A stretch of 35,803 nt of DNA from [Clostridium] clostridioforme AGR2157 (lineage in GTDB: Bacteria; Bacillota; Clostridia; Lachnospirales; Lachnospiraceae): the NCBI RefSeq assembly GCF_000424325.1, contig NZ_AUJR01000047.1, positions 1 to 35,803 of the forward strand, in the 5' to 3' direction. Position numbers and translations under genes: made by a program. The notes below the pieces were generated by a model. The model ran no database searches. It worked only from the letters and a program-made list of their open reading frames with translations, and was not told the DNA's origin. Shown in pieces: positions 397 through 21,904 of this stretch. Positions within the stretch are counted from its first letter, which is position 1. The number at the start of each line of letters is the position of its first letter.

Positions 397-1473
397 ATGT
401 CAACTAATATGGAGGAAAAGCCTGTCTCTGACAGCGGACAGATAAACCCGCTGGGACATCTGACGAGACAGCAGCTAAAAGAACTGGAGCAAAAGGAAAA
501 AACACGCGGGCAGATAATCCTGGACTTCGTTATTATGGTGCTTCCGGTTATCTGCGGTTTCACTGCTATTATCGAGTACTGGGAAGTTCCCAACGGAAGT
601 CCCAACAGCCATCCCTACACCTATGTAGGGGCATTGACAGCCTTTATGACTGCATACGCTCTCTATGCCCTTGCAGCCGGGATTAAGAACTGGAAGGGAG
701 ACAAACGGACAGTGGAGGACCTGCGCTACCGCGCGCCTTTGGTTTCTGCTTTTTTTCTCCTGCTTACCTTTTATGATTATCTGACTCTGAAAACAGGCAT
801 CCTGTCCCAGCCCTTTGTTCCGTGTATGAACAGCATATTGAACATTGCATGGGAGGACCGGGCTTATCTGCTTGAATGTACGCTTCATACTCTGCGTCTG
901 TTGTTTCTGGGATATTTTATCGGAATTGCCCTGGGACTGGTTACGGGAATTACCTGTGGTTATTCCGAGAAGGCCCGGTACTGGATTAATCCCATTATCA
1001 AATTTCTGGGGCCCATTCCCACCGCAACATGGATTCCCATTATCATGGTTGTGGCAACCTCCCTGTTCAGGGGAGCCGTGTTTATCATCGCCCTTGGCTC
1101 CTGGTTTGCAGTTACCGTGGCATCCATGTCCGGCATCCAAAATGTGGACAGGGATTTCTTCGAGGCCGCAAGGACCCTGGGGGCAAGTGAGCGGCAGCTT
1201 GTTTTCCGGGTGGCGATTCCTCATGCAATGCCCTCTATTTTACAGGGCTGCACCCAGGCCATGAGCTCATCCTGTGTCGCAATCATGATTGCGGAGATGA
1301 TGGGGGTAAAGGCCGGACTTGGCTGGTACATGAATTGGGCTAAATCCTGGGCGGCCTACGACAAAATGTTTGCAGCGCTGTTTGTCATCTGCTTTATTTT
1401 CACTATTGTGACAAAGGTGCTGGATTTGATTAAACGCCGCGTCCTCAGATGGCAGAACGGAGTAGTGAAATAA
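397..1473 (+). CDS. NitT/TauT-type ABC transporter permease
   Basis: Membrane permease of an ABC importer of the nitrate/sulfonate/taurine class (SsuC/TauC-like). The C-terminal 230 residues form the BPD_transp_1 domain, with the cytoplasmic EAA loop that docks the ATPase (EAARTLGASERQLVF, encoded about 1160-1210). The protein has 358 residues, about 100 more than typical SsuC/TauC proteins. The extra N-terminus adds a charged stretch and about three membrane segments before the usual core. The ATG at 397 follows AGGAGAAG at good spacing. The stop TAA shares one base with the ATG of the ATPase gene, so the two are translationally coupled. No promoter is visible in the 42 bp between the IS hairpin and the gene. 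The substrate cannot be told from sequence. Confidence 0.9.
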   Translation: MSTNMEEKPVSDSGQINPLGHLTRQQLKELEQKEKTRGQIILDFVIMVLPVICGFTAIIEYWEVPNGSPNSHPYTYVGALTAFMTAYALYALAAGIKNWKGDKRTVEDLRYRAPLVSAFFLLLTFYDYLTLKTGILSQPFVPCMNSILNIAWEDRAYLLECTLHTLRLLFLGYFIGIALGLVTGITCGYSEKARYWINPIIKFLGPIPTATWIPIIMVVATSLFRGAVFIIALGSWFAVTVASMSGIQNVDRDFFEAARTLGASERQLVFRVAIPHAMPSILQGCTQAMSSSCVAIMIAEMMGVKAGLGWYMNWAKSWAAYDKMFAALFVICFIFTIVTKVLDLIKRRVLRWQNGVVK

Positions 1474-2255
1474 TGGCAGAAAATACAATTATCCTTCGGT
1501 TAGAAAATGTATCAAAAAGTTTCGCAAAGGTGGAGCACGATGAGGTTACCCATGCGTTAAACGAGGTGAATCTGTCCATGAAGAGCGGTGAATTTATCAG
1601 TCTCGTGGGGCCGTCCGGATGCGGGAAATCTACCATACTCCGCCTTGTGGCCGGACTGATTCCCCCGACCACCGGCCATCTGACCGTAAATGGGGCACAG
1701 ATTACAGGGCCGTCGCCGGAGCGGGGAATGATGTTTCAGAAACCAACCCTTTTTCCATGGCTGACAGTGGAAAAAAATATTTCCTTCAGCTTAAAGCTGC
1801 AGGGAAAACTGAAGGGGAATGAGGAGAAGGTAGAGAGGATGCTTAAAATCATCGGCCTTGAATCCTTCCGGAACGACTACCCGGGCCAGCTTTCCGGCGG
1901 TATGGCTCAGCGCGTTTCACTGGTGCGCTCTCTGATTAACGAGCCGGATATACTGCTGTTAGACGAGCCGCTGGGAGCTCTTGACGCATTTACACGCATG
2001 AATATGCAGGATGAAATCTTAAAGGTGTGGCAGGAGAAAAAGCAGCTTGCGATCATGGTTACTCATGATGTGGATGAAGCCATTTATATGGGAACCAGGG
2101 TGATTGTCATGGACGCGCACCCGGGGCGGGTTGTCTCTGATATTAAGATAGACCAGGCATACCCCAGAGAGCGCTCATCCCAGACCTTTGTGGCCTGCCG
2201 GAATGAAATCCTCAACCGCCTGCACTTCGGCGGAAGAAACAGCGGTCAGCAGTAA
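1473..2255 (+). CDS. NitT/TauT-type ABC transporter ATP-binding protein
   Basis: Cytoplasmic ATPase of the same importer, 260 residues, SsuB/TauB/NrtD-like. Walker A is GPSGCGKST (residues 46-54), the signature is LSGGMAQR, and Walker B with the D-loop is LLLDEPLGALD. The H-loop His follows in MVTHDVDEA. I chose the ATG at 1473, which overlaps the upstream stop (TAATG) and has GGAG ten bases before it. An in-frame ATG at 1449 would add eight residues but lies inside the permease gene without a good ribosome site. All motifs needed for ATP hydrolysis are intact. Confidence 0.92.
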   Translation: MAENTIILRLENVSKSFAKVEHDEVTHALNEVNLSMKSGEFISLVGPSGCGKSTILRLVAGLIPPTTGHLTVNGAQITGPSPERGMMFQKPTLFPWLTVEKNISFSLKLQGKLKGNEEKVERMLKIIGLESFRNDYPGQLSGGMAQRVSLVRSLINEPDILLLDEPLGALDAFTRMNMQDEILKVWQEKKQLAIMVTHDVDEAIYMGTRVIVMDAHPGRVVSDIKIDQAYPRERSSQTFVACRNEILNRLHFGGRNSGQQ

Positions 2256-2340: not shown

Positions 2341-3579
2341 ATGATGAAAAAGACAAATGCGAAACGCGTTCTGGCAGCAGCGCTTGCGGGAATGATGGCC
2401 TTATCCCTGAGCGCCTGCGGGGAACAGGGCGGAGGATCCCCCACAGAAGGCGCGGCCGCAGCAGTTGTATCGGCCGAGACTAAAGCAGAGGCAGAATCAG
2501 CGGCGGAATCCCAGGATACCGGGAAATCCGGTGAGGAGATAACCGGCGGCGCAAGCCGTCCGGAGGCTGTGTCCCAGGAGGACTGGGAGGCCATGCAGAA
2601 GGAGCCTGCCTTTGGAACAACATTAAATTATCTGTTTAACGGAGGGGCCTGTGTGTCTGCGGTATACCTTGCCGAGGCGCTGGGCTATTATGAGGATTAC
2701 GGTATTAACGCGGAATACATTGAAGGCGAGTCTGTTGTTATGACGGTTGGTACAGGTAAGTGCCTGTGGGGAACAGACCATATCGCAACCATGCTTGTGC
2801 CGGTGACAAACGGCGTGGATATGACCTTTGTGGCAGGAGCCCACATGGGCTGCAAATCCATCTACGTATTCAACGACAGCGAGATTAAGACAGCTGAGGA
2901 TTTAAAGGGAAAGACCATTGCCATCCATGATGGCATCGGAAACTCCGACCAGAACATTATCTACCGTATGCTGGACGGGGAGGGTATAGACCCTACCTCT
3001 GAGGTGGAGTATCTTGATATCGCTGACAGCGCGGCCAGCGTAGCTGCCATGGAGAGCGGTGAGATTGACGCTTCCATTTTCTCGGATTATTTTGTAATCG
3101 CCAACTACAGCGATAAGATGCGCAAGGTATGCTCCATTACCCCCAGCGATGAGTTCGAGGGAGAGGTGTGCTGTGTAACCGCCATGAACAATGATTTTCT
3201 TGCGAAGAACCCGGTTCACGCAAAATACATTGTTATGGCTATTAAACGTGCAGGACAATATGCCCGTCTCCACTCTGAGGATGCTGTGCAGTTAATGTTT
3301 GACACCAATAAGATGACAGGTGAGTTTGAAAATCAGCTTCAGTTCTGGGATTCCCTGGATTTCGGCCTGTCTGACGCAATCACAGAGGAGGCACTTGGCA
3401 ATATTGCAGCCGACTACATCCGCCTTGGGGTTATCCAGAAGAAGGAACTGACAGCCGACGATGTCATGAAGCTTGCATGGACAAACGCGTGCCCGGATGA
3501 GGAGGTCCAGGGACTGACCGTGGGAGACCCGAAGTACGTGGAGGGACGTACCGTAGAGGTTCAGCAGAAGGGTGAATAA
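2341..3579 (+). CDS. NitT/TauT-type ABC substrate-binding lipoprotein
   Basis: Extracytoplasmic solute receptor anchored as a lipoprotein. A lysine-rich n-region and hydrophobic stretch lead to the lipobox LSAC (Cys26). An Ala/Glu/Ser-rich linker runs to about residue 85. An NMT1/THI5-like, SsuA-like periplasmic-binding fold follows, with the typical opening about a molecule that makes the cell's 'EALGYYEDYGI' segment. The ATG at 2341 has GGAG six bases upstream; a second ATG follows at once. It lies 85 bp after the ATPase gene and closes the operon before the terminator at 3671. The gene order permease-ATPase-receptor reverses the common receptor-first order. The ligand is unknown. Nitrate, sulfonates, thiamine precursors and other small solutes are all used by this family. 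Confidence 0.88.
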   Translation: MMKKTNAKRVLAAALAGMMALSLSACGEQGGGSPTEGAAAAVVSAETKAEAESAAESQDTGKSGEEITGGASRPEAVSQEDWEAMQKEPAFGTTLNYLFNGGACVSAVYLAEALGYYEDYGINAEYIEGESVVMTVGTGKCLWGTDHIATMLVPVTNGVDMTFVAGAHMGCKSIYVFNDSEIKTAEDLKGKTIAIHDGIGNSDQNIIYRMLDGEGIDPTSEVEYLDIADSAASVAAMESGEIDASIFSDYFVIANYSDKMRKVCSITPSDEFEGEVCCVTAMNNDFLAKNPVHAKYIVMAIKRAGQYARLHSEDAVQLMFDTNKMTGEFENQLQFWDSLDFGLSDAITEEALGNIAADYIRLGVIQKKELTADDVMKLAWTNACPDEEVQGLTVGDPKYVEGRTVEVQQKGE

Positions 3580-3670: not shown

Positions 3671-3709
3671 AAAAGTCCCTAGGGAGTCGGTATCTCCCTG
3701 GGGACTTTT
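3671..3709 (+). terminator. Rho-independent terminator of the NitT/TauT-type operon
   Basis: A 16-bp stem (3671-3686 with 3694-3709, one G-T pair, 7-base loop) starts in AAAA and ends in TTTT. It is symmetrical enough to work in either direction. Confidence 0.9.
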
Positions 3710-3774
3710 CCACTTTATGGGGATGGTTCAGGCTGACTGTTTAATATATGGGCAAACGTTTGGCAAGAAAAGCG

Positions 3775-3803
3775 TTGACCTTTTGCGGACTTTTGCGTAT
3801 AAT
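3775..3803 (+). promoter_or_regulatory. Strong sigma-A promoter of the nickel/lar operon
   Basis: The -35 box is TTGACC (3775-3780) and the -10 box is a perfect TATAAT (3798-3803), with a 17-bp spacer. Transcription should start near 3810. It is the only strong promoter seen before the block running to larE. Confidence 0.85.
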
Positions 3804-3813
3804 TTTCCTAACG

Positions 3814-3829
3814 GTTGACAGAAGTCAAC
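3814..3829 (+). promoter_or_regulatory. Inverted repeat at the start of transcription, candidate operator
   Basis: GTTGAC-AGAA-GTCAAC is a perfect 6-bp inverted repeat that begins about four bases after the expected transcription start. A repressor bound here would block the promoter. It could instead be a 5' RNA hairpin. No NikR-type GTATGA/TCATAC site was found nearby. Confidence 0.5.
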
Positions 3830-3904
3830 ATTCAGAATGAATCGGACAAGCGCGATTAAGTGAGATTGAATAATTTTAGAAGTAAGGGATACCAGGAAGG
3901 TAGG

Positions 3905-4051
3905 ATGTATTCTCAAGGAATACGCTTATTCTGGTATTTTTTTATGCTTTTGCGGAATGTAAGTTTATGGAATGTAAGTTTATGGAATCCAAGCTTATGG
4001 AAACCAGGCATACGGGCATGGCATGAAAAAAGGAAATGGAGAGGGAAATGA
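3905..4051 (+). CDS. Trp-rich 48-residue leader or small membrane protein with pentapeptide repeats
   Basis: Small ORF starting at the ATG at 3905, preceded by AGGAAGG. It ends TGA at 4049-4051, so its stop overlaps the ATG of the receptor gene (ATGA at 4048-4051). The peptide has a hydrophobic N-terminus (IRLFWYFFMLL), then three repeats of N(V/P)SLW and a degenerate fourth, then a basic tail. Six of 48 residues are Trp. The repeats are encoded by four tandem 15-bp units at 3954-4013. I know no family like it. The ribosome site and stop-start overlap argue that it is translated. It may be a leader that couples translation to the nickel receptor, or a small membrane accessory protein. The alternative is a fortuitous ORF in repeat DNA. 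Confidence 0.45.
   Translation: MYSQGIRLFWYFFMLLRNVSLWNVSLWNPSLWKPGIRAWHEKRKWRGK
3954..4013 (+). repeat. Four tandem 15-bp repeats
   Basis: Two perfect copies of GGAATGTAAGTTTAT (3954-3968, 3969-3983) are followed by two diverged copies (3984-3998, 3999-4013). The period is a multiple of three and stays in frame with the small ORF, encoding the NVSLW-type repeat. The unit could expand or contract without shifting the frame. Confidence 0.85.
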
Positions 4052-5796
4052 GACGAGGAATGAGAAACGGAATGAAATATGCCGTGGCAGCCATGCTGGC
4101 CGTGTCCATGGCAGTGACGGGCTGCGCAGGCAGCAAAACAGGAAGCAGCGCTAAGGACAGCGGGACATCTGCGGCCGCAGATAGTGCGGGCCACAATGCG
4201 GGAGACAGTACGGGAAACAGTGCAGGAGATATTGCTGGGGACAGTGCGGGAAACAGTGCGGGAAATGGCGCCAAGGAGACAGGAAACAATGGGACAAGGG
4301 ACGACGTGGTGGTTGTCATGGGGCCAACCTCAGAGCCGGAGGCCGGATTTGATCCTGCCTACGGATGGGGGGCAGGCGAACATGTCCATGAGCCGCTGAT
4401 TCAGAGTACGCTGACTGTGACCACCGCTGACCTGAAAATAGGATATGACCTGGCAACCGATATGGAGGTGAGCCAGGACGGGCTTACCTGGACCGTGAAT
4501 ATACGGGATGACGTTAATTTTACAGACGGAGAGAAGCTGACTGCCCGGGATGTGGCTTTTACATACAATACCCTGCGGGACACCAGCTCTGTCAATGATT
4601 TTACCATGTTAGAGAGTGCGGAGGCGCTGGATGATACCACGGTGGCATTTCACATGAACCGGCCCTATTCCATCTGGCCCTACACCATGGCAATTGTTGG
4701 AATTGTACCGGAACATGCCTATGGGGCGGATTACGGGTCACATCCCATTGGTTCCGGCAGATATATCATGAAGCAGTGGGATAAGGGACAGCAGGTCATA
4801 TTTGAGGCCAACCCGGATTATTACGGGACAGAGCCGAAAATGAAGAAGGTGACCATACTTTTCATGGAAGAGGACGCAGCTTATGCGGCTGTCATGTCCG
4901 GGCAGGTGGACCTGGCCTATACGGCTGCATCCTATTCGGACCAGACCCTGCCCGGATATGAGCTCCTTTCTTTCGAGACAGTGGATAACCGGGGCTTCAA
5001 TCTTCCGGCAGTAAAGGCCGGCACTGTATCTGACGGCAAAACCGTTGCTGGAAATGATTTCACGTCGGATGTACAGGTGAGAAGGGCTGTGAACATTGCG
5101 ATTGACAGGGATGAAATGATTGAACATGTGTTAAACGGCTACGGAAGTCCGGCATACAGTGTATGTGATAAGATGCCCTGGTACAATGAGTCTGCAAAGA
5201 CAGAGTATGACCCGCAAAAGGCAGCAGAGCTCTTGGAGGAGGCCGGATGGAAGGCTGGTTCGGATGGAATGAGGGAAAAGGATGGCGTCAGGGCCGGATT
5301 TACACTGATGTACCCGGCCAGCGATTCTGTACGCCAGGCCCTGGCAGCGGATACTGCCAACCAGCTTAAGGAAGTGGGAATTGATGTGAAGATAGAGGGC
5401 GTTGGCTGGGATGACGCCTATGACCGCGCCCAGTCAGAGCCGCTCATGTGGGGCTGGGGCGCCCATACGCCTATGGAACTCTACAATATTTACCATACCA
5501 TGAAGGATACCGGCCTGGCGGAGTATTCTCCCTATGCTAATGACAGTGTGGACCGGTACATGGACCAGGCCCTGGCCAGCGGGAATCTGGAGGATTCCTA
5601 CGAGCTGTGGAAGAAGGCCCAGTGGGATGGGAACACAGGGGTGACCCAGGATGGAGATATACCGTGGATTTGGCTGGTTAATATAGACCATCTGTACTGG
5701 TCCAGGGACGGACTTAAGGTGGCGGAGCAGAAAATCCATCCCCATGGACACGGATGGTCCATTGTGAATAATGTGGACCAGTGGAGCTGGGAATAG
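4048..5796 (+). CDS. nikA: Nickel/peptide-type ABC substrate-binding lipoprotein (SBP_bac_5)
   Basis: Solute receptor of the peptide/nickel family, 582 residues. A signal sequence ends in the lipobox VTGC (Cys26). A low-complexity linker of Gly, Ser, Ala, Asn and Asp follows (about residues 27-85, repeats like AGDSAGNSAG). Then comes a full SBP_bac_5 domain with the family hallmarks WTVNIRDDVNFTDGEKLTA and DVQVRRAVNIAIDRDEMIE. The ATG at 4048 is chosen because GGAGAGG precedes it and because it overlaps the stop of the small upstream ORF; 4036 has no workable ribosome site. The family binds peptides, nickel chelates or other solutes. Nickel is inferred from the downstream larBCE genes, not from binding residues. 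The symbol follows that context. Confidence 0.82.
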   Translation: MRRGMRNGMKYAVAAMLAVSMAVTGCAGSKTGSSAKDSGTSAAADSAGHNAGDSTGNSAGDIAGDSAGNSAGNGAKETGNNGTRDDVVVVMGPTSEPEAGFDPAYGWGAGEHVHEPLIQSTLTVTTADLKIGYDLATDMEVSQDGLTWTVNIRDDVNFTDGEKLTARDVAFTYNTLRDTSSVNDFTMLESAEALDDTTVAFHMNRPYSIWPYTMAIVGIVPEHAYGADYGSHPIGSGRYIMKQWDKGQQVIFEANPDYYGTEPKMKKVTILFMEEDAAYAAVMSGQVDLAYTAASYSDQTLPGYELLSFETVDNRGFNLPAVKAGTVSDGKTVAGNDFTSDVQVRRAVNIAIDRDEMIEHVLNGYGSPAYSVCDKMPWYNESAKTEYDPQKAAELLEEAGWKAGSDGMREKDGVRAGFTLMYPASDSVRQALAADTANQLKEVGIDVKIEGVGWDDAYDRAQSEPLMWGWGAHTPMELYNIYHTMKDTGLAEYSPYANDSVDRYMDQALASGNLEDSYELWKKAQWDGNTGVTQDGDIPWIWLVNIDHLYWSRDGLKVAEQKIHPHGHGWSIVNNVDQWSWE

Positions 5797-5856
5797 CAGA
5801 AATCAGAAGATGGATAAAATTATTGATATCAGTATGAAGGCAGGAAGGATAAAATC

Positions 5857-6837
5857 ATGAGTTGGAAACAGGCGGGTGTTAATTTCATACGGATGGCAGT
5901 CCTGCTGGTGCTGGTGAGTATGGCGGCGTTTTTCCTGGTGTCGGTCTCTCCGCTGGACCCCCTTACCACCAATGTGGGGCAGGCGGCCCTTGGCAGCATG
6001 AGCAGCGAGCAGATTGCCAGGCTCCAGGAATATTGGGGTGTCAACACGCCGCCTGTAACCCGTTATCTGGCCTGGGCCGGTGAGTTTCTTAAGGGAGATA
6101 TGGGTATCTCCCTTTTGTACCGCAGGCCTGTAGCCCAGGTAATCGGGGAGAAGCTGGCCAATTCCCTTTGGATTATGGCGGCGGCATGGATTTTGTCCGG
6201 ATTCATTGGGTTCCTTATGGGAATCATAGCCGGGGCAAAGAAGGGAAAGGCAGCGGATCGTATTATTTCTTCCTATGCCCTGGTAACTGCCAGTACGCCG
6301 GCCTTCTGGGTGGCCCTGGTGCTGTTGGTTGTATTCGCGGTCTGGCTTAAGCTGCTCCCCATAGGACTTTCCGTTCCAATCGGGGTGGAGGCATCGGCTG
6401 TGACCATGAAGGACCGCCTGATTCATGGCATACTGCCTGCGTCGGCATTGTCCATTACAGGCATCTCCAACATTGCCCTTCACACAAGGGAGAAGATGGC
6501 AGAGGTCATGGAGAGCGATTATGTACTGTTTGCCAGGGCCAGGGGAGAGTCGGAATGGTCCATTATCCGCAGGCATGGAATCCGCAACATCCTTCTTCCC
6601 GCCATGACGCTCCAGTTTGCCTCTGTCAGCGAGATATTCGGAGGCTCTGTGCTGGTGGAGCAGGTATTTTCCTATCCGGGCCTGGGACAGGCGGCTGTGA
6701 CGGCCGGATTGGGCGGGGATGTGCCGCTCCTGATGGGTATTACAATCATCAGCGCGGCCATTGTATTTTTAGGGAACTTCACCGCCAACCTCTTGTATGG
6801 AACGGTGGACCCCAGAATCAGGAGGAGCAGGGGATGA
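5857..6837 (+). CDS. nikB: Nickel/peptide ABC transporter permease, NikB/DppB type
   Basis: First membrane subunit of the importer, 326 residues. It has an N-terminal membrane segment and the extracellular family region with VSPLDPL and GVNTPPVTRYL. The BPD_transp_1 core follows, with the docking loop YVLFARARGESEWSIIRRHG and the late segment GSVLVEQVFSYPGLGQAA, a hallmark of DppB/NikB. The ATG at 5857 follows AGGAAGG. The stop overlaps the next start (ATGA at 6834-6837), so it is coupled to the partner permease. Nickel as substrate is inferred from context. Confidence 0.88.
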   Translation: MSWKQAGVNFIRMAVLLVLVSMAAFFLVSVSPLDPLTTNVGQAALGSMSSEQIARLQEYWGVNTPPVTRYLAWAGEFLKGDMGISLLYRRPVAQVIGEKLANSLWIMAAAWILSGFIGFLMGIIAGAKKGKAADRIISSYALVTASTPAFWVALVLLVVFAVWLKLLPIGLSVPIGVEASAVTMKDRLIHGILPASALSITGISNIALHTREKMAEVMESDYVLFARARGESEWSIIRRHGIRNILLPAMTLQFASVSEIFGGSVLVEQVFSYPGLGQAAVTAGLGGDVPLLMGITIISAAIVFLGNFTANLLYGTVDPRIRRSRG

Positions 6838-7670
6838 GCGCACAAAGACACAGATGGAACCGCCGCAAGGCCATGGCGGTGCTGCTGGCGGTATCGGTCA
6901 TCCTGCTGGCGGCCATTGCCATTGCCGGCCAGGTGTTAAAGGAGCAGGCCCTGGCCACGGATTTCACCAGAAAGAACCTGCCGCCCAGTCTGGCCTATCC
7001 CTTTGGGACGGACTGGATGGGGCGGGATATGTTCATCCGCAGCCTTACAGGACTATCCATCAGCATACGCATCGGGCTTTTGACAGCATGTATCAGCGCG
7101 GTGGCGGCCTTTATCATGGGAACCATGGCAGCCTGTCTGGGCAGGGTCACAGACGCTGTCATCGGGGGAATCATTGACCTGGTTATGGGAATACCCCATA
7201 TCCTGTTTCTGATTCTCATTTCCTTTGCAGTGGGCAAGGGATTCTGGGGCGTACTGATTGGCATTTCACTGACCCACTGGACATCCCTTGCCAGGCTTCT
7301 CCGGGGGGAGGTCATGCAGCTTCGTGAGAGCCAGTATATACAGGTTGCAAAGAAGTTGGGAAAGGGAAGGTTTTATATTGCTTTCAAACATATGACGCCT
7401 CATCTGCTGCCCCAGCTTTTCGTGGGCATGGTTCTGTTGTTTCCCCATGCAATCCTTCATGAGGCCAGTATAACCTTCCTGGGCTTCGGACTGCCGCCGG
7501 AGCAGCCTGCAGTGGGTGTTATCCTGTCTGAGAGCATGAAATACCTGGTCATGGGAAAATGGTGGCTGGCCCTGTTTCCGGGGCTTTTGCTGGTATTTGT
7601 GGTGGTCCTGTTCCATTTTATCGGGGATACGCTGAGCCGTCTGATGGACCCGGCCCAGGCCCATCTGTAG
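6834..7670 (+). CDS. nikC: Nickel/peptide ABC transporter permease, NikC/DppC type
   Basis: Second membrane subunit, 278 residues, pairing with NikB. An N-terminal Arg-rich tip and one membrane helix lead to FGTDWMGRDMFIR, the NikC/DppC signature. The BPD_transp_1 core follows, with the loop YIQVAKKLGKGRFYIAFKH and the ending segment EASITFLGFGLPPEQPAVG. The true start is the ATG at 6834, overlapping the nikB stop. A longer open frame upstream of it (from 6555) is only the shadow of nikB in another frame. Confidence 0.9.
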   Translation: MSAQRHRWNRRKAMAVLLAVSVILLAAIAIAGQVLKEQALATDFTRKNLPPSLAYPFGTDWMGRDMFIRSLTGLSISIRIGLLTACISAVAAFIMGTMAACLGRVTDAVIGGIIDLVMGIPHILFLILISFAVGKGFWGVLIGISLTHWTSLARLLRGEVMQLRESQYIQVAKKLGKGRFYIAFKHMTPHLLPQLFVGMVLLFPHAILHEASITFLGFGLPPEQPAVGVILSESMKYLVMGKWWLALFPGLLLVFVVVLFHFIGDTLSRLMDPAQAHL

Positions 7671-7715
7671 AATCTCTGTCTACCGCTGCAGAGGTTCGTT
7701 CTGTAGGAGGTTGTC

Positions 7716-8648
7716 ATGGAGGAAAAACAAGTCATATTGTCGGTGGAGCACCTGATGATTTCATTTTCTCAGTATGTAGGGGGATGGCGCCAGAGGGAGC
7801 TTCCCGTGATTCGGGATCTGAACATAAAGGTACGGGAACATGAGGTGGTGGCCGTAGCCGGTTCCAGCGGTTCGGGAAAGAGCCTTCTGGCCCATGCGGT
7901 CATGGGACTTCTGCCGCAGAATGCCGCCTGTCAGGGGACGGTTTCCTTTGAGGGGGAAATCCTGACCCAGAAGCGCAAGGAACAGCTCAGGGGGAGCCGG
8001 ATGGTATTGGTGCCCCAGAGCGTGTCCTATCTGGATCCCCTTATGAAGGTGGGGGAACAGGTACGAAGGGGACAAAAGGATAAGGAGAGCGTGAAGCGCT
8101 GCCGTGAGTCTCTGGGGCGATACGGGCTGGGAGAGGATACGGAGGGACTGTATCCTTTTGAACTGTCCGGGGGAATGACCAGAAGGGTGCTGATTTCTAC
8201 GGCAGTGATGGAGCATCCCAGACTGGTCATTGCAGACGAACCCACGCCGGGGCTTCATATCAGCGCGGCCAGGCGTGTGCTCACCCATTTCCGGGAGATA
8301 GCGGACGAGGGGGCAGGGGTCCTTCTCATCACTCATGATTTGGAGCTGGCTCTGGAGGTGGCTGACAGAATCGTGGTATTTTATGCGGGTACCAATGTGG
8401 AGGAGGCCCTGGCAGCGGATTTTGAGGATGAGAAAAGGCTTCGCCACCCCTATACCAGGGCTCTTTACCGGGCCATGCCCCGCCACGGGTTTAAGGCAGC
8501 GTCCGGGACCCAGCCCTATGTAGCGGATATGCCCGCGGGATGTCCCTATGGGCCCCGCTGCCCGGACATGGATGAGGGCTGTCTCCAGGAAATTTCCTAT
8601 CGCAGTTTTCGCGGCGGCATGGTAAAATGCAGGAAGGCGGGAGTATGA
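7716..8648 (+). CDS. nikD: Nickel/peptide ABC transporter ATPase, NikD/DppD type
   Basis: First ATPase of the importer, 310 residues. Walker A is GSSGSGKS (49-56), the signature LSGGMTRRV, and Walker B LVIADEP (Asp174-Glu175). The C-terminus carries the oligopeptide/nickel extension with spaced Cys residues (CPYGPRCPDMDEGC). The ATG at 7716 follows AGGAGG at seven bases. The stop overlaps the start of the next ATPase (ATGA, 8645-8648). After Walker B the usual 'SALD' D-loop reads TPGLH, a departure that may tune the paired ATPase site. Confidence 0.88.
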   Translation: MEEKQVILSVEHLMISFSQYVGGWRQRELPVIRDLNIKVREHEVVAVAGSSGSGKSLLAHAVMGLLPQNAACQGTVSFEGEILTQKRKEQLRGSRMVLVPQSVSYLDPLMKVGEQVRRGQKDKESVKRCRESLGRYGLGEDTEGLYPFELSGGMTRRVLISTAVMEHPRLVIADEPTPGLHISAARRVLTHFREIADEGAGVLLITHDLELALEVADRIVVFYAGTNVEEALAADFEDEKRLRHPYTRALYRAMPRHGFKAASGTQPYVADMPAGCPYGPRCPDMDEGCLQEISYRSFRGGMVKCRKAGV

Positions 8649-9253
8649 GGCTGGAAGCAATGAATATTTCATTCCAATACGACAATGGGAACAGGAAAAT
8701 ACTGAACAATGTCAGCATGAGCTTTGAGAGCGGGGAACGCGTGGGGCTGACGGCTCCCAGCGGTTTTGGAAAGACTACCTTTTGCAAGATACTGGCCGGT
8801 TATGAGAAGCCGGACCGTGGGACTGTGGCTTTAGACGGAAAAGATATTACTTCCCGGGGCGGTTACAATCCGGTGCAGATGATATGGCAGCATCCGGAAC
8901 TGTCGGTAAATCCCCGTCTTAAGATGCGGGAGGTGCTGAGGGAAGGGGACTGCGTGGAGGAACGGGTGGTCCGCGGCCTGGGAATCGAACCGGACTGGCT
9001 GAACCGGTATCCGGGAGAGCTGTCCGGAGGGGAGCTGCAGCGGTTCTGTATAGCCAGGGCTTTGGGGAGGCGCACCCGGTTCATTCTTGCAGATGAGATA
9101 AGCACCATGCTGGACCTTATCACCCAGAGCCAAATCTGGGGATTCCTTTTGGAGGAAGTGAAGACGCGCAGGCTGGGTTTGCTGGTGGTCAGCCATTCAG
9201 AGGAGCTGCTGGAGCGTGTTTGCGGCAGGGTGGTTGATTTGAGGACGGACTAG
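8645..9253 (+). CDS. nikE: Short nickel/peptide ABC transporter ATPase, NikE type
   Basis: Second ATPase, only 202 residues against about 260 in NikE of enterobacteria; it stops after the ABC core. Walker A reads APSGFGKT (37-44), so the first Gly of GxxGxGK[ST] is Ala, while Gly40, Gly42, Lys43 and Thr44 remain. The signature LSGGELQR and Walker B ILADE are intact, followed by STMLD. The ATG at 8645 overlaps the nikD stop and has AGGAAGGCGGGAG upstream; the in-frame ATG at 8627 is less likely. The short form seems complete, as the frame is clean and conserved to the H-loop (VVSHSEE). Together with nikD it should form the heterodimeric motor. Confidence 0.85.
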   Translation: MRLEAMNISFQYDNGNRKILNNVSMSFESGERVGLTAPSGFGKTTFCKILAGYEKPDRGTVALDGKDITSRGGYNPVQMIWQHPELSVNPRLKMREVLREGDCVEERVVRGLGIEPDWLNRYPGELSGGELQRFCIARALGRRTRFILADEISTMLDLITQSQIWGFLLEEVKTRRLGLLVVSHSEELLERVCGRVVDLRTD

Positions 9254-9349
9254 GGCCGGATTAAGGACGGAGCAGCCGGATGATTCGTATGTGGAAGGAT
9301 TGAAAATGGATTGGCTGATCCGTATGAATTTGAGAGAGGAGAACGAAAG

Positions 9350-10093
9350 ATGGATGTCAGGGAATTACTGGAACAGGTAAAGTCCGGCAGTGTTGAGATA
9401 GAGGATGCGCAGATGCAGCTTAAGAACCTGCCCTATGAGGATTTGGGATATGCCAAGCTGGACCATCACAGGAAGCTGCGTTCCGGTTTTGGGGAAACCG
9501 TATTCTGCCAGGGGAAGCCGGATGCGTATTTGCTGGAAATTTATAAGAAATTTTATGAGAGAGATGGGGAGGTCCTGGGAACCAGGGCTTCTGAGAGCCA
9601 GGCTGAGCTGGTGAGAACAGCGGTACCGGATGTGGTGTATGATCCCATATCCCGGATACTCAAGGTGGAGAAGCCGGGAAAGGAGCGCAAGGGGTATGTG
9701 GCAGTGTGCACGGGAGGCACGGCGGACATACCGGTGGCGGAGGAAGCAGCCCAGACCGCTGAATATTTCGGATGCAGGGTAGACCGGATATTTGATGTGG
9801 GAGTTGCCGGAATCCACAGGCTTCTGGCCCAGAGGGAGCGCCTGGACAAGGCCAACTGCATTGTGGCAGTGGCCGGAATGGAAGGAGCGCTGGGCACGGT
9901 GATAGCAGGCCTGGTGGAATGCCCTGTGGTGGCAGTCCCCACCTCCGTGGGATACGGCGCCAGCTTCCATGGGTTATCGGCCCTTCTTACAATGCTTAAT
10001 TCCTGCGCCAACGGGATATCAGTGGTTAATATTGACAATGGATACGGCGCCGGCTACCTGGCGGCCCAAATAAACAGAATGGCGGTGAGATAA
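9350..10093 (+). CDS. larB: LarB, pyridinium-3,5-biscarboxylic acid mononucleotide synthase
   Basis: First enzyme of nickel-pincer cofactor synthesis. LarB carboxylates nicotinic acid adenine dinucleotide and releases AMP to give the biscarboxylate mononucleotide. The protein has 247 residues, the usual LarB length. Its C-terminal half resembles PurE (AIR carboxylase), with VAVCTGGTADIPVAEEAA, then GVAGIHRLL and VAGMEGALGTVIAGLV. The conserved Cys219 in LNSCANGISVVNIDNG matches the catalytic Cys known from Lactobacillus LarB. The ATG at 9350 has AGGAG eight bases upstream; an in-frame TTG at 9311 is not supported. The larC ATG follows the stop by one base. Confidence 0.95.
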   Translation: MDVRELLEQVKSGSVEIEDAQMQLKNLPYEDLGYAKLDHHRKLRSGFGETVFCQGKPDAYLLEIYKKFYERDGEVLGTRASESQAELVRTAVPDVVYDPISRILKVEKPGKERKGYVAVCTGGTADIPVAEEAAQTAEYFGCRVDRIFDVGVAGIHRLLAQRERLDKANCIVAVAGMEGALGTVIAGLVECPVVAVPTSVGYGASFHGLSALLTMLNSCANGISVVNIDNGYGAGYLAAQINRMAVR

Positions 10094-10094
10094 A

Positions 10095-11306
10095 ATGGGA
10101 AAGATTTTATATCTGGAATGTAATTCGGGTATCAGCGGGGACATGACGGTAGGAGCTCTGCTTGACCTGGGAGCGGACAGGCAGGTGCTGGAGAATGCGC
10201 TGGAGAGCCTGGGAGTGGATGGATACCATCTGCATTTTAGCCGGAAGGTTGTGTGTGGTCTGGATGCTTTTGATTTTGATGTGCATTTGGAGGATGGGCA
10301 TGAGTATGAGCACGATCACGGCCATCCCCATTCCCACATTCACAGGAACCTCCACGACATTTATCATATCATAGACCATCTGGATTCCAACGATAGGGTG
10401 AAGGAAATGGCCCGGACCATGTTCCGCATTGTGGCGGAGGCGGAATCCAAGGCCCATGGGCTTCCTGTTGAGCAGGTTCATTTCCACGAAGTGGGGGCTG
10501 TTGATTCCATTGTGGACATTATCAGTGTGGCAGTCTGCATCGACAATCTGGGCGTGGAGGATGTGGTGGTTTCTGCATTGTCAGAAGGTCGCGGCCATGT
10601 CCACTGCCAGCACGGTGTACTGCCGGTTCCTGTTCCCGCTACAGCTAATATTGCTTCTTCCTATGGACTTAAGCTGCATTTTACAGACAATGACGGGGAA
10701 ATGGTCACACCTACCGGGGCAGCCATAGCCGCTGCGCTGCGGACAAAGGACCGCCTTCCCGCTTCCTGCCGCCTGCTTAAGACAGGAATGGGTGCGGGGA
10801 ACAAGGTGTTTAAACAGGCGAATGTGCTCCGGGCCATGCTTCTGGAGACTTCACAGGATGAGGACCGTACCATGTGGGTATTGGAGACGAACCTGGATGA
10901 CTGTACAGGGGAAATGCTGGGTCTTGCCATGGAGATGCTCCTTGAAGCCGGGGCCGCGGATGTGTGGTATACCCCCATTCACATGAAGAAGAACCGTCCT
11001 GCCTATATGCTGTCCGTGCTTTGCCGTGAATCATCCATAGAGGCCATGGAGGAAATCATCCTGACCCAGACCACAACTATTGGAATCCGCCGCTATCAAA
11101 CGGAGAGGACCATTCTTGAGCGGAGTGAAATCCAGGTGGAAACCAGTTACGGGCCAGCGGATGTGAAGGTGTGTGCTTACAAGGGCAGAAAGTTCTTTTA
11201 TCCGGAATATGAAAGCATCCGGCGGATCTGTACGGAACAGAGCGTGGATTTTCAGACTGCATATCATCATGTACGCATGAAGGCAGAAGAAAGCCGCCAG
11301 GATTAA
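10095..11306 (+). CDS. larC: LarC, nickel-inserting cyclometallase for the pincer cofactor
   Basis: Third step of the pathway: LarC uses CTP to insert nickel into the bis-thiocarboxylate mononucleotide, forming the carbon-nickel bond. The protein has 403 residues in one frame and begins with LYLECNSGISGDMTVGALLD. A His-rich stretch (about residues 69-95, EHDHGHPHSHIHRNLHDIYH) is a likely nickel-handling segment. The motifs HFHEVGAVDSIVDI, VTPTGAAIAAAL and LETNLDDCTGEMLG follow. Lactobacillus plantarum makes full LarC only by a ribosomal frameshift between larC1 and larC2; here both halves are fused in a plain reading frame. It lies between larB and larE. Confidence 0.96.
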   Translation: MGKILYLECNSGISGDMTVGALLDLGADRQVLENALESLGVDGYHLHFSRKVVCGLDAFDFDVHLEDGHEYEHDHGHPHSHIHRNLHDIYHIIDHLDSNDRVKEMARTMFRIVAEAESKAHGLPVEQVHFHEVGAVDSIVDIISVAVCIDNLGVEDVVVSALSEGRGHVHCQHGVLPVPVPATANIASSYGLKLHFTDNDGEMVTPTGAAIAAALRTKDRLPASCRLLKTGMGAGNKVFKQANVLRAMLLETSQDEDRTMWVLETNLDDCTGEMLGLAMEMLLEAGAADVWYTPIHMKKNRPAYMLSVLCRESSIEAMEEIILTQTTTIGIRRYQTERTILERSEIQVETSYGPADVKVCAYKGRKFFYPEYESIRRICTEQSVDFQTAYHHVRMKAEESRQD

Positions 11307-11339
11307 ATGATATAGATAATGTCAGATTAGGAGATTCGT

Positions 11340-12200
11340 ATGAATACGGTAAATAACAGCTACAGTGATGTAATGTCATCTCTGGACCATATGAAAAAGT
11401 GTCTGGAGGTCAGGATGGAACAGCTGGCTAAAGAGGATATATGCCTTGCGTTTTCCGGAGGAGTTGATTCAAGCCTGCTTTTAAAGACAGCAGCAGACGC
11501 AGCAGTCCATACGGGGAGAAAAGTGTACGCCGTGACGTTTGACAGCTGCCTGCATCCATCCTGCGACCTGGAGATAGCCAGGCGCGTGGCAGGGGAGCTG
11601 GGAGGAATCCATGAAGTCATTACCGTGGACGAGCTGGAGCAGGAGGCAATAAAAAATAACCCGGTAAACCGCTGTTATCTGTGTAAGCGCCATCTGTTCT
11701 CCAAACTGGCAGAATTGGCAGAGGCCAGGGGAATCCGGTATATCCTGGACGGCACCAATGAGGACGATATGCATGTATACCGTCCCGGAATCCAGGCACT
11801 TAAGGAGCTGGGAATCATAAGTCCCCTGGCAGAGCTGCACATAACCAAGGCTCAGGTAAAGGCCCTGGCGTCAGAGTACGGAATATCGGTGGCATCCCGT
11901 CCGTCCACTCCCTGTATGGCTACCCGCCTGCCCTATGGCGCTGTCCTGGATTATGAGGTGCTGGGAAGAATCGGAGAAGGAGAAGCCTATGTCAGGACCC
12001 TGGTCCCCGGCAATGTGCGGCTCAGGCTTCACGGAGATATCGTGCGTCTGGAACTGGACCCGGGAGCCTTTGAGGTATTTATGAAATGCCGGGAGGAAAT
12101 CGTCAGCCGTCTGAAGGAAATGGGGTTTGTATATATAACTCTGGATGCAGAAGGGTTCCGCTCCGGGAGTATGGATGTAGGGCTGAATGGAGCAGGCTGA
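11340..12200 (+). CDS. larE: LarE, ATP-dependent sacrificial sulfur transferase
   Basis: Second step of cofactor synthesis: LarE adenylylates the substrate carboxylates and replaces oxygen with sulfur. It has 286 residues. The PP-loop is SGGVDSS (39-45). The RCYLCK segment and TNEDD follow, then SRPSTPCMATRLPYG with Cys192 at the place of the Cys that gives up its sulfur in Lactobacillus LarE. The single Cys here suggests the sacrificial mechanism rather than the iron-sulfur form with three clustered Cys, although CYLC lies elsewhere in the chain. The ATG at 11340 follows TAGGAG. The gene ends the operon before the hairpin at 12347. Confidence 0.95.
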   Translation: MNTVNNSYSDVMSSLDHMKKCLEVRMEQLAKEDICLAFSGGVDSSLLLKTAADAAVHTGRKVYAVTFDSCLHPSCDLEIARRVAGELGGIHEVITVDELEQEAIKNNPVNRCYLCKRHLFSKLAELAEARGIRYILDGTNEDDMHVYRPGIQALKELGIISPLAELHITKAQVKALASEYGISVASRPSTPCMATRLPYGAVLDYEVLGRIGEGEAYVRTLVPGNVRLRLHGDIVRLELDPGAFEVFMKCREEIVSRLKEMGFVYITLDAEGFRSGSMDVGLNGAG

Positions 12201-12346: not shown

Positions 12347-12385
12347 CGCCTGTATTATCTAAATATAGATAATACAGGCGTTTCC
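12347..12385 (+). terminator. Terminator after larE
   Basis: A perfect 15-bp stem (12347-12361 with 12366-12380, loop AATA) is followed by TTT and a T-rich tract interrupted by CCC. It lies about 150 bp after larE and should end the nickel/lar transcript. Confidence 0.75.
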
Positions 12386-12547: not shown

Positions 12548-13606
12548 ATGGACATGTCGTTTTCCTTTTTCCTGCGGCAGCTGGTGACAAATCCGGCACT
12601 GTTGATAACAGTCCTTCTGACCCTTGGGGTCATCTGTGTCAATGGCATCACGGATGCGCCAAATGCCATTGCCACATGCGTGTCAACCAGGTCGCTGGAT
12701 GTGAATCTGGCCATTGTCATGGCGGCAGTATGCAACTGCGCAGGGGTGGTTGTGATGACCATAGTGAATTCCACGGTTGCCATGACCATTACCAATATGG
12801 TCAATTTCGGGGAAGATACTACGATTGCTCTGGTTGCCCTGTGTGCCGCGCTTTTTTCCATTGTGGTCTGGTCGTCCTTTGCTGTTTCCATTGGATGTCC
12901 TACCAGTGAGAGCCATGCGCTGATAGCAGGCCTTACCGGAGCTGCTGTGGCTATCCGCGGAGGATTTTCAGCCATTAACTCGGCAGAGTGGATAAAGGTG
13001 GTATATGGACTGATTTTTTCCGTTGTATTGGGATTTTTAAGCGGCTATCTTTCATGCAGGCTGGTGGCCTGGACCTGCCGGGATATGGACCGTCGGAAAA
13101 CCTCCGGATTCTTCCGGTATGCTCAGATTGGCGGAGCCGCCGCCATGGCATTCATGCACGGTGCACAGGACGGACAGAAATTCATGGGAGTCATGCTGCT
13201 GGGTATCTGTATGGTCAACGGGTCCAGCAATACTCAGGGAGTACAGTTCCCCCTTTGGATGCTTTTGCTGGGATCGGCTGCCATGGCCCTGGGAACTTCC
13301 ATTGGAGGAAAGAAAATCATCAAATCCGTGGGCATGGATATGGTACGGCTGGAGAAATACCAGGGCTTTTCCGCAGATATGGCGGGAGCTGCCTGTCTTC
13401 TCGGATTTTCCATTTTCGGTATACCTGTCAGTACCACACATACTAAAACCACAGCCATCATGGGTGTGGGAGCGGTTAAACGTCTGTCGGCCATTAACTT
13501 CAGCGTGGTTAAGGACATGGTGATGACCTGGGTCATGACATTCCCTGGCTGCGGCATCATTGGATTCCTGATGGCGAAGCTGTTTATGGTGTTGTTCCAT
13601 GGATGA
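12548..13606 (+). CDS. pit: Inorganic phosphate transporter, Pit family
   Basis: Low-affinity, proton- or cation-coupled phosphate permease (PiT family), 352 residues with about ten membrane segments in two inverted halves. The first half carries the family signature in VNGITDAPNAIATCVSTRSL and the second carries FMHGAQDGQKFMG and GIPVSTTHTKTTAIMGVG. The ATG at 12548 follows GTAGG-type bases weakly. The gene is followed at once by a DUF47 gene, the standard partner of Pit in Firmicutes, and both should share one transcript. The three Pho-box-like repeats upstream suggest control by phosphate supply. Confidence 0.93.
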   Translation: MDMSFSFFLRQLVTNPALLITVLLTLGVICVNGITDAPNAIATCVSTRSLDVNLAIVMAAVCNCAGVVVMTIVNSTVAMTITNMVNFGEDTTIALVALCAALFSIVVWSSFAVSIGCPTSESHALIAGLTGAAVAIRGGFSAINSAEWIKVVYGLIFSVVLGFLSGYLSCRLVAWTCRDMDRRKTSGFFRYAQIGGAAAMAFMHGAQDGQKFMGVMLLGICMVNGSSNTQGVQFPLWMLLLGSAAMALGTSIGGKKIIKSVGMDMVRLEKYQGFSADMAGAACLLGFSIFGIPVSTTHTKTTAIMGVGAVKRLSAINFSVVKDMVMTWVMTFPGCGIIGFLMAKLFMVLFHG

Positions 13607-13623
13607 GTAAAGGAGAAGATAAG

Positions 13624-14247
13624 ATGTCTAAGAAAAGTGATAGTTACTATTTTCAGAATTTCATTGAGTGCGTTGAGTGCGGATGCCAGGCAGCTAAAAT
13701 GCTGGAGGACAATCTGGAACATTTTGATACAGGACTTTTACAGGACAATCTGGACGGGCTGCACAGGATTGAACATGATGCGGATAAGAAAAAGCATGAG
13801 ATGATGGCCGTACTGGTCAAGGCTTTTATCACCCCCATTGAGCGGGAGGATATCATTCTTTTGAGCCAGAGCATTGACGAGGTGACGGACAAGATTGAGG
13901 ATGTGCTGATTCGTATTTACATAAACAATATTCGGCAAATCCGTCCCGAGGCCCTTGCCTTCATAAAGGTCATCATCCGCTGCTGCGAGGCGCTTAAGGA
14001 GGTCATGGAGGAGTTTGCGGACTTCAGAAAATCCAAGACCCTCCATGATCTGATTATCGAGATTAACGCTCTGGAGGAGGAGGGCGACAGGCTGTTCATT
14101 GATTCCATGCGCAGTCTTCACGCCGAGGTGACGGACCCCATTAAAATCATTGCCTGGAGGGAGATTTACGTATACCTGGAGAAATGCTGCGATGCCTGCG
14201 AGCATGTGGCTGATGTGGTGGAGAGCGTGATTATGAAGAATACCTGA
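13624..14247 (+). CDS. DUF47/PhoU-like Pit accessory protein
   Basis: Cytoplasmic all-helical protein of the PhoU-like DUF47 family (TIGR00153 type), 207 residues. It has the family features AAKMLEDNLEHFD, LDGLHRIEHDADKKKHEM and FITPIEREDIILLSQSIDEV, and a C-terminal helix pair ending KCCDACEHVADVVESVIMK. These proteins are coded next to Pit and are thought to modulate it, probably through metal-bound helical bundles. I chose the ATG at 13624, preceded by AAAGGAG; the ATG at 13603 overlaps the pit stop but lacks a ribosome site. Confidence 0.92.
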   Translation: MSKKSDSYYFQNFIECVECGCQAAKMLEDNLEHFDTGLLQDNLDGLHRIEHDADKKKHEMMAVLVKAFITPIEREDIILLSQSIDEVTDKIEDVLIRIYINNIRQIRPEALAFIKVIIRCCEALKEVMEEFADFRKSKTLHDLIIEINALEEEGDRLFIDSMRSLHAEVTDPIKIIAWREIYVYLEKCCDACEHVADVVESVIMKNT

Positions 14248-17669: not shown

Positions 17670-17846
17670 AGGTGACATTGTAGTAATAATATGATAGGAA
17701 GGAGTTTCTTGCACGTGTGACATGGGAAATAGTCTTGCTAATATTTTGAGACAGAGATTACCAGCAGGTTAATGCAGTTCATTGTAAAAATGTCAGGAAT
17801 AGTATATACTATGATTAAAGAAATATTCCAGGGAGGAGGCAGGATT

Positions 17847-18263
17847 ATGGATATATCTGAGAGACAGCAGATTGTTGAACATTACGCAGAACTGGTAAAA
17901 GAACAATATCCACAGACAAATCAATATAATGTATTGGTTTTCGGAAGCTTTCTGACAGATAGATATACAGAACAGTCAGATATTGATATAGGAGTCTTTT
18001 CATTGATTCCAGGATTATCGTTTCGTATTTATTCCTTTACAAAGGATCACTTTGATAAGTTAGGGATAAATAGTGATGTGGTACGGATGCGGCTGCTGGA
18101 AAGCCAGTATATTAATGTCTCTATTGTCACAGGTCAGAAATATGCGGTGACGGATTACTGCCCCAGGGAGTTGGTTGATTATATTAAAAGAATGATTGCG
18201 CAATATGGGGAGAATCCTCAGGAAACGGCAGTTAGACTGATGCGGCAGGAGGTTATTGCATGA
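17847..18263 (+). CDS. mntA: MntA-type minimal nucleotidyltransferase antitoxin
   Basis: Nucleotidyltransferase-fold protein of 138 residues. The motif GSX10DXD is exact: Gly33-Ser34, then ten residues, then Asp45-Ile-Asp47. In characterised MntA/HepT pairs the enzyme adds AMP to a Tyr in the toxin's RX4HXY motif and so neutralises it. The ATG at 17847 follows GGGAGGAGG; upstream in-frame ATGs (17772) lack a ribosome site. The HEPN partner starts 37 bp after the stop. Antitoxin first and toxin second is the reverse of the well-known hepT-mntA order. Confidence 0.88.
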   Translation: MDISERQQIVEHYAELVKEQYPQTNQYNVLVFGSFLTDRYTEQSDIDIGVFSLIPGLSFRIYSFTKDHFDKLGINSDVVRMRLLESQYINVSIVTGQKYAVTDYCPRELVDYIKRMIAQYGENPQETAVRLMRQEVIA

Positions 18264-18300
18264 ACTTATTTGGTGATGCATTGCAAAAGGCCGGTTAGAA

Positions 18301-18738
18301 ATGAAACTGTTGGAGATGAAGAATCATGTTTCTTCATTAGAACGTATGTATGAAAAATATTTAGCGTCTGAAGGTCAGGACCAATTTGATATCATGGACG
18401 GGCTTGCAAACCGATTCGGGTACATGGTAATTGCTTTTCAGGATGTGATGACAACCATTGGCTGGTTGACCGGGACGGTAAATGGTGCGGAACAACTGTC
18501 CATACGGCGTGCAATATCGGAATTTCAGTCTATATTTGAAGTAGAGTGTCAGGAACAGGGATTAGACAATGGGGTTTCGTCCATGGCTGACAGAAATGAA
18601 ATTGTTCACGTCTATGAGAATTATAAAAGTAATATGGAAGCAGTACTGGAAAATGTGCAAAATTATAGAAGTGAGTATGGAGCGATTATCAGGATTCTTT
18701 GGAAGTATTGTGAAGCAAAAGATATTTTGCAAAAGTAA
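18301..18738 (+). CDS. hepT: HepT-like HEPN-domain RNase toxin
   Basis: All-helical HEPN-family protein of 145 residues. The RX4HXY motif is present as Arg98-NEIV-His103-V-Tyr105 (RNEIVHVY); Arg and His form the RNase site of HEPN dimers, and Tyr105 is the expected AMP acceptor. The early segment DGLANRFGYMVIAFQDVMTT matches the HepT helix-pair region. The ATG at 18301 has AAGG some 12 bases upstream and a weak site; an ATG at 18316 is an alternative. The pair is closed by the terminator at 18773. No frameshift, so the toxin looks intact. Confidence 0.87.
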   Translation: MKLLEMKNHVSSLERMYEKYLASEGQDQFDIMDGLANRFGYMVIAFQDVMTTIGWLTGTVNGAEQLSIRRAISEFQSIFEVECQEQGLDNGVSSMADRNEIVHVYENYKSNMEAVLENVQNYRSEYGAIIRILWKYCEAKDILQK

Positions 18739-21380: not shown

Positions 21381-21425
21381 GAACCGGCCGGATGCTGTTG
21401 CTTACTTCATGAAGGAGATGAGATT

Positions 21426-21902: not shown

Positions 21903-21904
21903 GC

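Follow-up and report, generated by a model that had tools for sequence, protein, structure and literature searches.

A nickel-import and nickel-pincer nucleotide operon of [Clostridium] clostridioforme, its probable LarA2 partner and a structured leader RNA

Introduction

The closest described relatives of the locus considered here are the larABCDE and lar nickel-transporter loci of Lactiplantibacillus plantarum. LarB, LarE and LarC synthesize the nickel-pincer nucleotide (NPN) (PMC11796402; PMC12611868). About 15% of genomes carry larBCE without larA, from which an NPN protein other than LarA has been inferred (PMC11796402), and single-histidine LarA proteins have been reported to lie among glycolysis-like neighbours and possible sugar ATP-binding cassette (ABC) transporters (PMC12611868, section 2.6). 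Here we analyse a nikABCDE-larB-larC-larE unit on a stretch of 35,803 nucleotides (the window), which is an entire contig (NZ_AUJR01000047.1; C44 of G000) of the genome of the gut bacterium [Clostridium] clostridioforme AGR2157 (4.94 Mb, 133 contigs). The genes themselves are ordinary; new are their link to the LarA homologue LarA2, an operator shared with the LarA2 cluster and a previously undescribed leader. In our judgement, the unit probably serves nickel import and NPN synthesis for LarA homologues encoded elsewhere, LarA2 first, under the control of a LacI-type operator and the leader. Read from sequence, the following underlie this view: the identities of the genes, the presence of three LarA homologues, the synteny of LarA2, the palindrome common to the two clusters, and a conserved leader whose terminator covaries.

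Results and Discussion

Three LarA homologues outside the unit

The lar products belong to the NPN biosynthesis families by curated cut-offs: LarB reaches 296 bits against 175 (NF033503), LarC 201 against 90 (TIGR00299) and 158 against 50 (NF052512), and LarE 264 against 150 (TIGR00268). The identities proposed by an earlier, sequence-only reading of the window thus stand with ample margin. The cysteines of LarE (Table 1) presumably fit a [4Fe-4S]-type LarE. The same reading described the unit as lacking a larA enzyme, which is correct for the contig only, because three LarA homologues are encoded on other contigs. They emerged from the genome-wide search that it had proposed, as matches to Lar_N (PF09861) over cut-off on contigs C5 (LarA1), C2 (LarA2) and C13 (LarA3), and their differing settings agree with its idea of cofactor supply to several LarA-like enzymes coded elsewhere. 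LarA1 is of the canonical family (616 bits against 460) and lies between a D-threonate-type kinase (265 bits, where the cut-off is 450) and a glycerate kinase, behind which come KdgT and PdxA genes; LarA3 falls into group 22 (523 bits against 400). LarA2 (497 amino acids; L005:9344-10837) has as its nearest solved structures 9q2u/9q3k and 9q3j, the single-histidine enzymes (PMC12611868), and matches both LarA_Bw and LarA_Sp at E<1e-250. An Asn at the equivalent of His174, with Lys184 and His200 kept, places it in that subfamily. Across an alignment of 11 LarA rows the equivalents of His108, Lys184 and His200 are kept throughout, and those of Lys184 and His200 are present in all three homologues of the genome.

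Gene order in relatives ties LarA2 to the unit. Among 17 genomes of the genus, LarB and LarC each exceed their cut-offs in 15, and nik genes adjoin larBCE in 11 of the 15 larC-bearing genomes (not in G005, G006, G013 and G015). In G004 and G011 we find a single run of a TIM gene, LarA2, a NitT permease, ATPase and binding protein, nik and larBCE (in G011, nikE was not resolved by gene picking and larB was taken from a separate family search); in G012, LarA2 precedes nik without intervening NitT genes. In the source genome, NitT genes still lie beside nik, and LarA2 is found on C2, behind a second NitT set, NagB-like, aldolase, PFK and TIM-like genes and a transposase (by eye), and before NagA. 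Because LarA2 stands directly upstream in the same run in G004 and G011, it has moved here rather than been lost. A larA gene lost from directly downstream, which the sequence-only reading had named as a refuting case, is therefore half matched: a larA homologue does adjoin in close relatives, but upstream. The suggestion that the flanking NitT/TauT-type importer serves the same pathway is supported by its position between LarA2 and nikA in G004 and G011, and by a NitT-like permease in 32 and a binding-protein cluster in 30 of 87 LarA2 loci.

These 87 loci, which partly overlap, comprise seven earlier ones and, out of 276 related stretches that a scan of genome contigs gave, the 80 that matched best, with hosts such as Hungatella, Lacrimispora, Enterocloster, Mediterraneibacter, Treponema, uncultured Spirochaetes and Paenibacillus, among others. 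Gene clusters, whose names were each checked on one protein (larC by BLAST to the window's own), were counted as follows: LarA2 82, TIM-like 71, PFK 66, LacI 54, aldolase 51, NagA 44, NitT-like ATPase 44 (which may include other ABC ATPases), NagB-like 40, PGI 16, TauE/SafE 15, aldose epimerase 15 and larC 12. All these counts are rough, because loci overlap, are cut at contig ends and have genes hidden behind antisense frames. The NMT1-type binding protein, the TauE/SafE genes and, in Lacrimispora, a sulfatase point to sulfur-bearing sugars, and a sugar carrying sulfur would be our guess, from the transporter families, for the LarA2 substrate. A word search of the main text of PMC12611868 found no mention of the importer type, TauE, a sulfatase or larBCE links. 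Relative to that text, the present comparison adds the NitT/TauT importer, TauE/SafE, a palindrome attributable to LacI, the nik-larBCE linkage and hosts without LarB and LarC.

A palindrome shared with the LarA2 cluster

In the window the palindrome CAAACGTTTG is present once, with 12 nt between it and the -35 box of the nik-lar promoter. A second copy, at position 187 of L005, precedes the genome's own LarA2 cluster and starts 97 nt ahead of its first gene, the NitT permease. It is found at 56 sites in 48 of the 80 LarA2 loci, against 1.5 expected from base composition, a count that overstates independence because these loci are related to each other. The gene that follows is PFK in 22 cases, LacI in 17, an energy-coupling factor (ECF) S component in four, a NitT permease in three, nikA in three, and another or none in seven. 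Of 141 larB loci, 13 come from genomes with LarA2 and 128 from genomes without it; seven of the former carry the palindrome, five times before nikA and twice before PFK (where the LarA2 cluster shares the stretch), and only one of the latter does, with no gene start nearby. It is absent from the 19-20 kb around LarA1 (L004) and LarA3 (L006).

A structured leader RNA

Between promoter and nikA (3814-3943) lies a leader with its own intrinsic terminator that the sequence-only reading had missed. Nine nik-lar genomes of the genus share it, beginning after the promoter and spanning about 135-171 nt, and built of a hairpin (P1), then a linker that varies, then a box together with the terminator; G014 and G016, where nik follows larC, are without it. 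The window copy folds with z=-4.2. A model built only on the nine genus leaders (R1) was searched against 163 loci, and all 12 matches outside the training set at E<=0.05, two antisense echoes of training sites having been set aside, head a nik, NikM or lar run: eight precede nikA, one NikM/CbiM (L104), one a methyltransferase-nik-like-larE run (L209) and two larE-larB (L222, L208). In genera beyond this one, leaders of this type head nik-lar operons as well as NikM-lar operons and bare lar ones. Weaker matches (E 0.05-1) precede nikA, NikM or larB in L076, L135, L237, L203 and L214, and lie one gene away in L120 and L085. A core model (R2), whose training includes most R1-found leaders, added larB heads in L214 (E 0.0008), L037 (0.14) and L028 (0.26).

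The core alignment of 16 rows shows 96.5% pairing in the terminator helix, whose covariation of 0.262 compares with 0.132 +/- 0.021 in shuffled alignments (reached in 0 of 500) and with at most 0.069 when slid; for the competing local hairpin ATRCC/GGYAT the evidence is weaker (31 of 500 shuffles). The box motif occurs 48 times in 156 loci, 25 times on the same strand near a larB, larC, larE or nikA start (-100 to 700 nt, windows that make up about 6.5% of the DNA). A P1 hairpin with a C-NGAA-G loop accompanies 16 of these 25 boxes and none of the other 23; among those 23, two (L104, L209) belong to leaders as well. If the nine genus leaders are counted only once, box position and P1 give p=1.5e-10 and p=3e-4; the position test is partly circular because the motif was drawn from leaders, which does not apply to the R1 result.

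Helix covariation, together with the occurrence of matches beyond the training set at comparable genes, marks a new structured leader family. At gathering level Rfam matches nothing in the window except a tRNA, and a known riboswitch could be rejected for the leader, the best weak match being His_leader (25.1 bits against 49) and none coming near gathering at E<=1. The literature surveyed on larB, LarC and nickel-pincer contained no mention of a riboswitch, and no earlier leader RNA of NPN operons was found in the literature searched.

How might these elements act together? We envision that the unit supplies the LarA2 of a sugar-catabolic cluster (NitT importer, NagB-like, aldolase, PFK, TIM-like, NagA) and that a LacI-type repressor of this cluster binds CAAACGTTTG, such that nik-lar would be opened together with the sugar genes when substrate is present. 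The leader might provide a further layer of control: its box ATRCCANGAAGGYAT would either form a small hairpin, permitting read-through, or be captured by the terminator, causing a stop, and a signal linked to nickel or NPN status could decide between the two. The same cofactor would also serve LarA1 and LarA3.

NPN synthesis and LarA across the family

In a sample of 250 genomes of the family, with LarA defined as Lar_N at E<=1e-10 or group 22 at E<=1e-5, LarB is found in 142, any LarA in 56 and both in 42, leaving 100 LarB-bearing genomes without LarA at these thresholds. Rechecking 80 of the 100 at E<=0.1 gave a match in 53, of which nine exceeded the Pfam cut-off; these nine are short matches to the end of Lar_N, and eight of them are DUF362 genes. 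Conversely, 14 genomes have LarA without LarB, and when G010 is added, 12 of the 15 also have no LarC. A new class of NPN enzyme, as the sequence-only reading had entertained, is not needed in the source genome, yet the 100 LarA-less genomes among 142 keep the idea alive for the family.

No consistent new partner gene stands beside larBCE in 80 LarA-less loci, where neighbours are heterogeneous; the commonest unlabelled clusters are an aldo/keto reductase with cysteine motifs (nine, by eye), a response-regulator-like gene (seven, by eye) and DUF362 (five, confirmed). No LarA or DUF362 is named within 9 kb of larB on a Pseudanabaena (L322) and a Roseburia (L323) plasmid, in a gene table that is incomplete and with the chromosomes not searched. 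A small membrane-like protein starting MACFxVP (by eye; L146:7041-7463, relatives in L124, L140, L148, L150 and L189) lies near larBCE in several genera. G078 has LarA2 and LarC and no LarB match in a genome 97% complete.

An ECF S component lies beside LarA2 in nine loci (L266, L272, L275, L279, L284, L294, L297, L298 and L057) and in none of the larB loci examined. It is paired with family c31 in six of the nine, c31 being kinase-like in L294. The run in G259, where LarB and LarC were not detected, reads aldolase, TIM, LarA2, TauE (all but LarA2 by eye) and ECF S component; the stretches examined of G001 and G010, which have LarA2 and no larBCE, contain no relative of this component.

Alternative readings

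Several observations weigh against the reading preferred here. None of the five importer genes reaches its NCBIfam Nik equivalog cut-off (NikA 160/393, NikB 168/447, NikC 158/358, NikD 140/319, NikE 116/354), and the families that they match best belong to the broad Opp/Nik ABC group. The five Nik-like genes of the sequence-only reading are present as a binding protein, two permeases and two ATPases, but being below the nickel-specific cut-offs they are Nik-like by order and context, on which nickel specificity therefore rests. Most larB loci lack the palindrome, and most lack the leader; among the weaker R1 matches (E 0.05-1), those in L117, L101 and L188 precede unrelated genes; and the nine training leaders are related among themselves, as are the 80 LarA2 loci. 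Moreover, LarA2 occurs without LarB over cut-off or LarC in four of 18 LarA2-bearing family genomes (drafts; G001, G130, G213 and G259), to which G010 adds a fifth, and LarA2 and LarB are not significantly associated in the family sample (p=0.22).

Might the unit then be a housekeeping supply of NPN, serving LarA1 and LarA3 as much as LarA2, to which the link would be historical only? The canonical score of LarA1, which would act as a hydroxy-acid racemase or epimerase within its set of kinase, KdgT and PdxA genes, and the group 22 match of LarA3 are in its favour. We nonetheless consider it unlikely, given that the palindrome before nik-lar is that of the LarA2 cluster and is missing around the other two, and that in G008, which has larB, larC and larE, nothing but LarA2 matches Lar_N at E<=0.001. 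Rather unlikely, too, is the proposal that the unit feeds, also or mainly, an NPN enzyme outside Lar_N, for which DUF362 (PF04015) is the best candidate. DUF362 shares a Pfam clan with Lar_N and serves in PMC11770544 only as an outgroup. It has three matches in the source genome; comparisons of sequence, profile and fold assign it to the LarA fold (the L126 protein by AlphaFold and Foldseek) with the NPN-linking lysine and the nickel-ligand histidine kept, and the equivalents of His174, Lys184 and His200 are invariant in the alignments made. The His108 equivalent, by contrast, is not a histidine (by eye), and co-occurrence does not confine the family to NPN producers: 48 of 163 genomes with DUF362 have no LarB (14 of 56 for LarA), and although 48 of 108 LarB-less genomes carry it, the aligned rows from LarB-less genomes keep the same residues. 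It occurs in none of 23 genus stretches, larB loci included, and is rejected as the sole answer, since 25 of the 100 LarB-bearing genomes without LarA have no DUF362 either, yet all have LarC. Association p-values for DUF362 are optimistic, the genomes being related. Genes of this family lie near larBCE at L126:11129-12016, L148:11079-12323, L229:4683-5789, L218:4804-5976 and L129:290-1153. In the literature searched on DUF362/PF04015 we found no proposal of NPN binding; we take the family as a lead for the question left open by PMC11796402, not an answer, and as a named candidate for the NPN protein called for there.

As for the leader, we see a real possibility, a little short of even, that it is a protein-controlled antiterminator instead of a ligand-binding RNA, with two hairpins bearing AGAA-like loops of which the second overlaps the terminator. 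ANTAR and LicT systems are protein-controlled antiterminators of that kind. The restriction of P1 to boxes near lar and nik starts, and a linker that is long and variable with no extended conserved aptamer, argue for it; against it, L104 and L209 (the NikM and methyltransferase-nik leaders) have no such P1, no RNA-binding antiterminator gene was recognised beside the unit among the window proteins scanned, and the loop sequences do not fit the ANTAR loop. At the other extreme, the leader could be an NPN-responsive switch that governs import (nikABCDE or NikM), synthesis (larBCE) and salvage of NPN as one regulon, the salvage arm consisting of the ECF S component and a nucleoside-kinase-like protein, although we would put little weight on this scheme or on its parts. 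In the LarA2 set, R1 finds the contigs of G012, G011 and G049 again (L245, L246, L260) and also L294 (E 0.012) and L279 (E 0.02). In both of these the match stands ahead of an ECF S component (PF12822) of a vitamin-type importer, which in L294 is followed by a gene with weak kinase similarity. The box pattern CANGAAGG precedes the ECF gene in these two loci only and is not within 260 nt upstream of it in L266, L272, L275, L284, L297, L298 and L057. The idea of NPN salvage comes from LarA2 hosts without larBCE and from the ECF family beside LarA2; if true, it would explain LarA2 in genomes without detected NPN synthesis, such as G259. On the best reading, this would be an ordinary unit for cofactor supply that shares its control with the LarA2 pathway by way of a LacI-type operator and an RNA attenuator.

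Layout of the unit and its surroundings

The extent given by the sequence-only reading needs small corrections only, the unit starting at 4036 and not at 4048, and the promoter that it had placed before the unit is present (Table 1). Of the four junctions between nik genes, only nikB/nikC (6834) and nikD/nikE (8645) have ATGA overlaps; the start of larB is most likely 9350; and the terminator after larE is a perfect hairpin, but with a weak T run. The strong hairpin behind the NitT genes had been overlooked.

Table 1. Features of the unit and its upstream region (window coordinates)
Feature	Position	Strand	Remarks
NitT/TauT-type importer permease	397..1473	+	linked to LarA2 in relatives
NitT/TauT-type importer ATPase	1449..2255	+	
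NitT/TauT-type substrate-binding protein (NMT1, PF09084)	2341..3579	+	
Strong hairpin	3671..3709	+	probable end of NitT transcript
Palindrome CAAACGTTTG	3753..3762	.	candidate LacI-type operator, common to LarA2 cluster
Sigma-70 type promoter TTGACC-17-TATAAT	3775..3803	+	
Conserved leader RNA	3808..3944	+	model R1, 143 bits; window copy in training set
Leader hairpin P1, GTTGAC-AGAA-GTCAAC	3814..3829	+	
Leader box ATACCAGGAAGGTA and intrinsic terminator re-pairing box	3889..3943	+	
nikABCDE-larB-larC-larE unit	4036-12200	+	window is whole contig
nikA-like binding protein (SBP_bac_5)	4036..5796	+	family-model match
nikB-like permease	5857..6837	+	family-model match
nikC-like permease	6834..7670	+	ATGA overlap with nikB; listed open frame from 6555
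nikD-like ATPase	7716..8648	+	family-model match
nikE-like ATPase	8645..9253	+	ATGA overlap with nikD
larB	9350..10093	+	ATG at 9350 with ribosome-binding site; listed open frame from 9311
larC	10095..11306	+	single unbroken frame
larE	11340..12200	+	Cys112, Cys115, Cys192 present
Hairpin after larE, 15 bp, 34 nt, perfect, weak T run	12347..12380	+	probable terminator of unit

A PiT phosphate transporter and a PhoU-like gene (12548-14247) follow larE here and in G004, G011 and G012. Further along lie an adenylyltransferase-like gene with weak likeness to the MntA antitoxin (28 bits, cut-off 60) and an unmatched gene of 145 amino acids (17772-18738), then an AraC-type regulator and a DctPQM-type tripartite ATP-independent periplasmic (TRAP) transporter (19056-23221). 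Each half of the split pathway has a mobile element nearby: at the left contig end (1-330), what we take to be a partial IS200/IS605-type transposase from its motif, and in L005, beside LarA2, a DDE-like transposase (by eye).

Comparison with known systems

For single-histidine LarA, operator and importer would place nickel, cofactor and LarA2 in a single regulon and thereby offer a route to the substrate, and a leader RNA heading NPN operons would be a handle on how this cofactor is regulated. The unit resembles the lar loci of L. plantarum in its LarB, LarC and LarE families and in a nickel importer near the synthesis genes; it differs in its Nik/Opp-type ABC importer, its single-frame larC, the lack of larA within the unit, and the possession of a separate leader and operator. 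Like the NiCo (czcD) riboswitch, the leader precedes a nickel importer, but it has no Rfam match. LarA2 resembles the LarA_Bw/LarA_Sp subfamily in the exchange of His for Asn and in its glycolysis-like neighbours (PMC12611868). Organisms with larBCE and no larA (PMC11796402) find their like in the 100 of 142 LarB-bearing genomes of the family sample, from which the source genome differs in possessing three LarA homologues.

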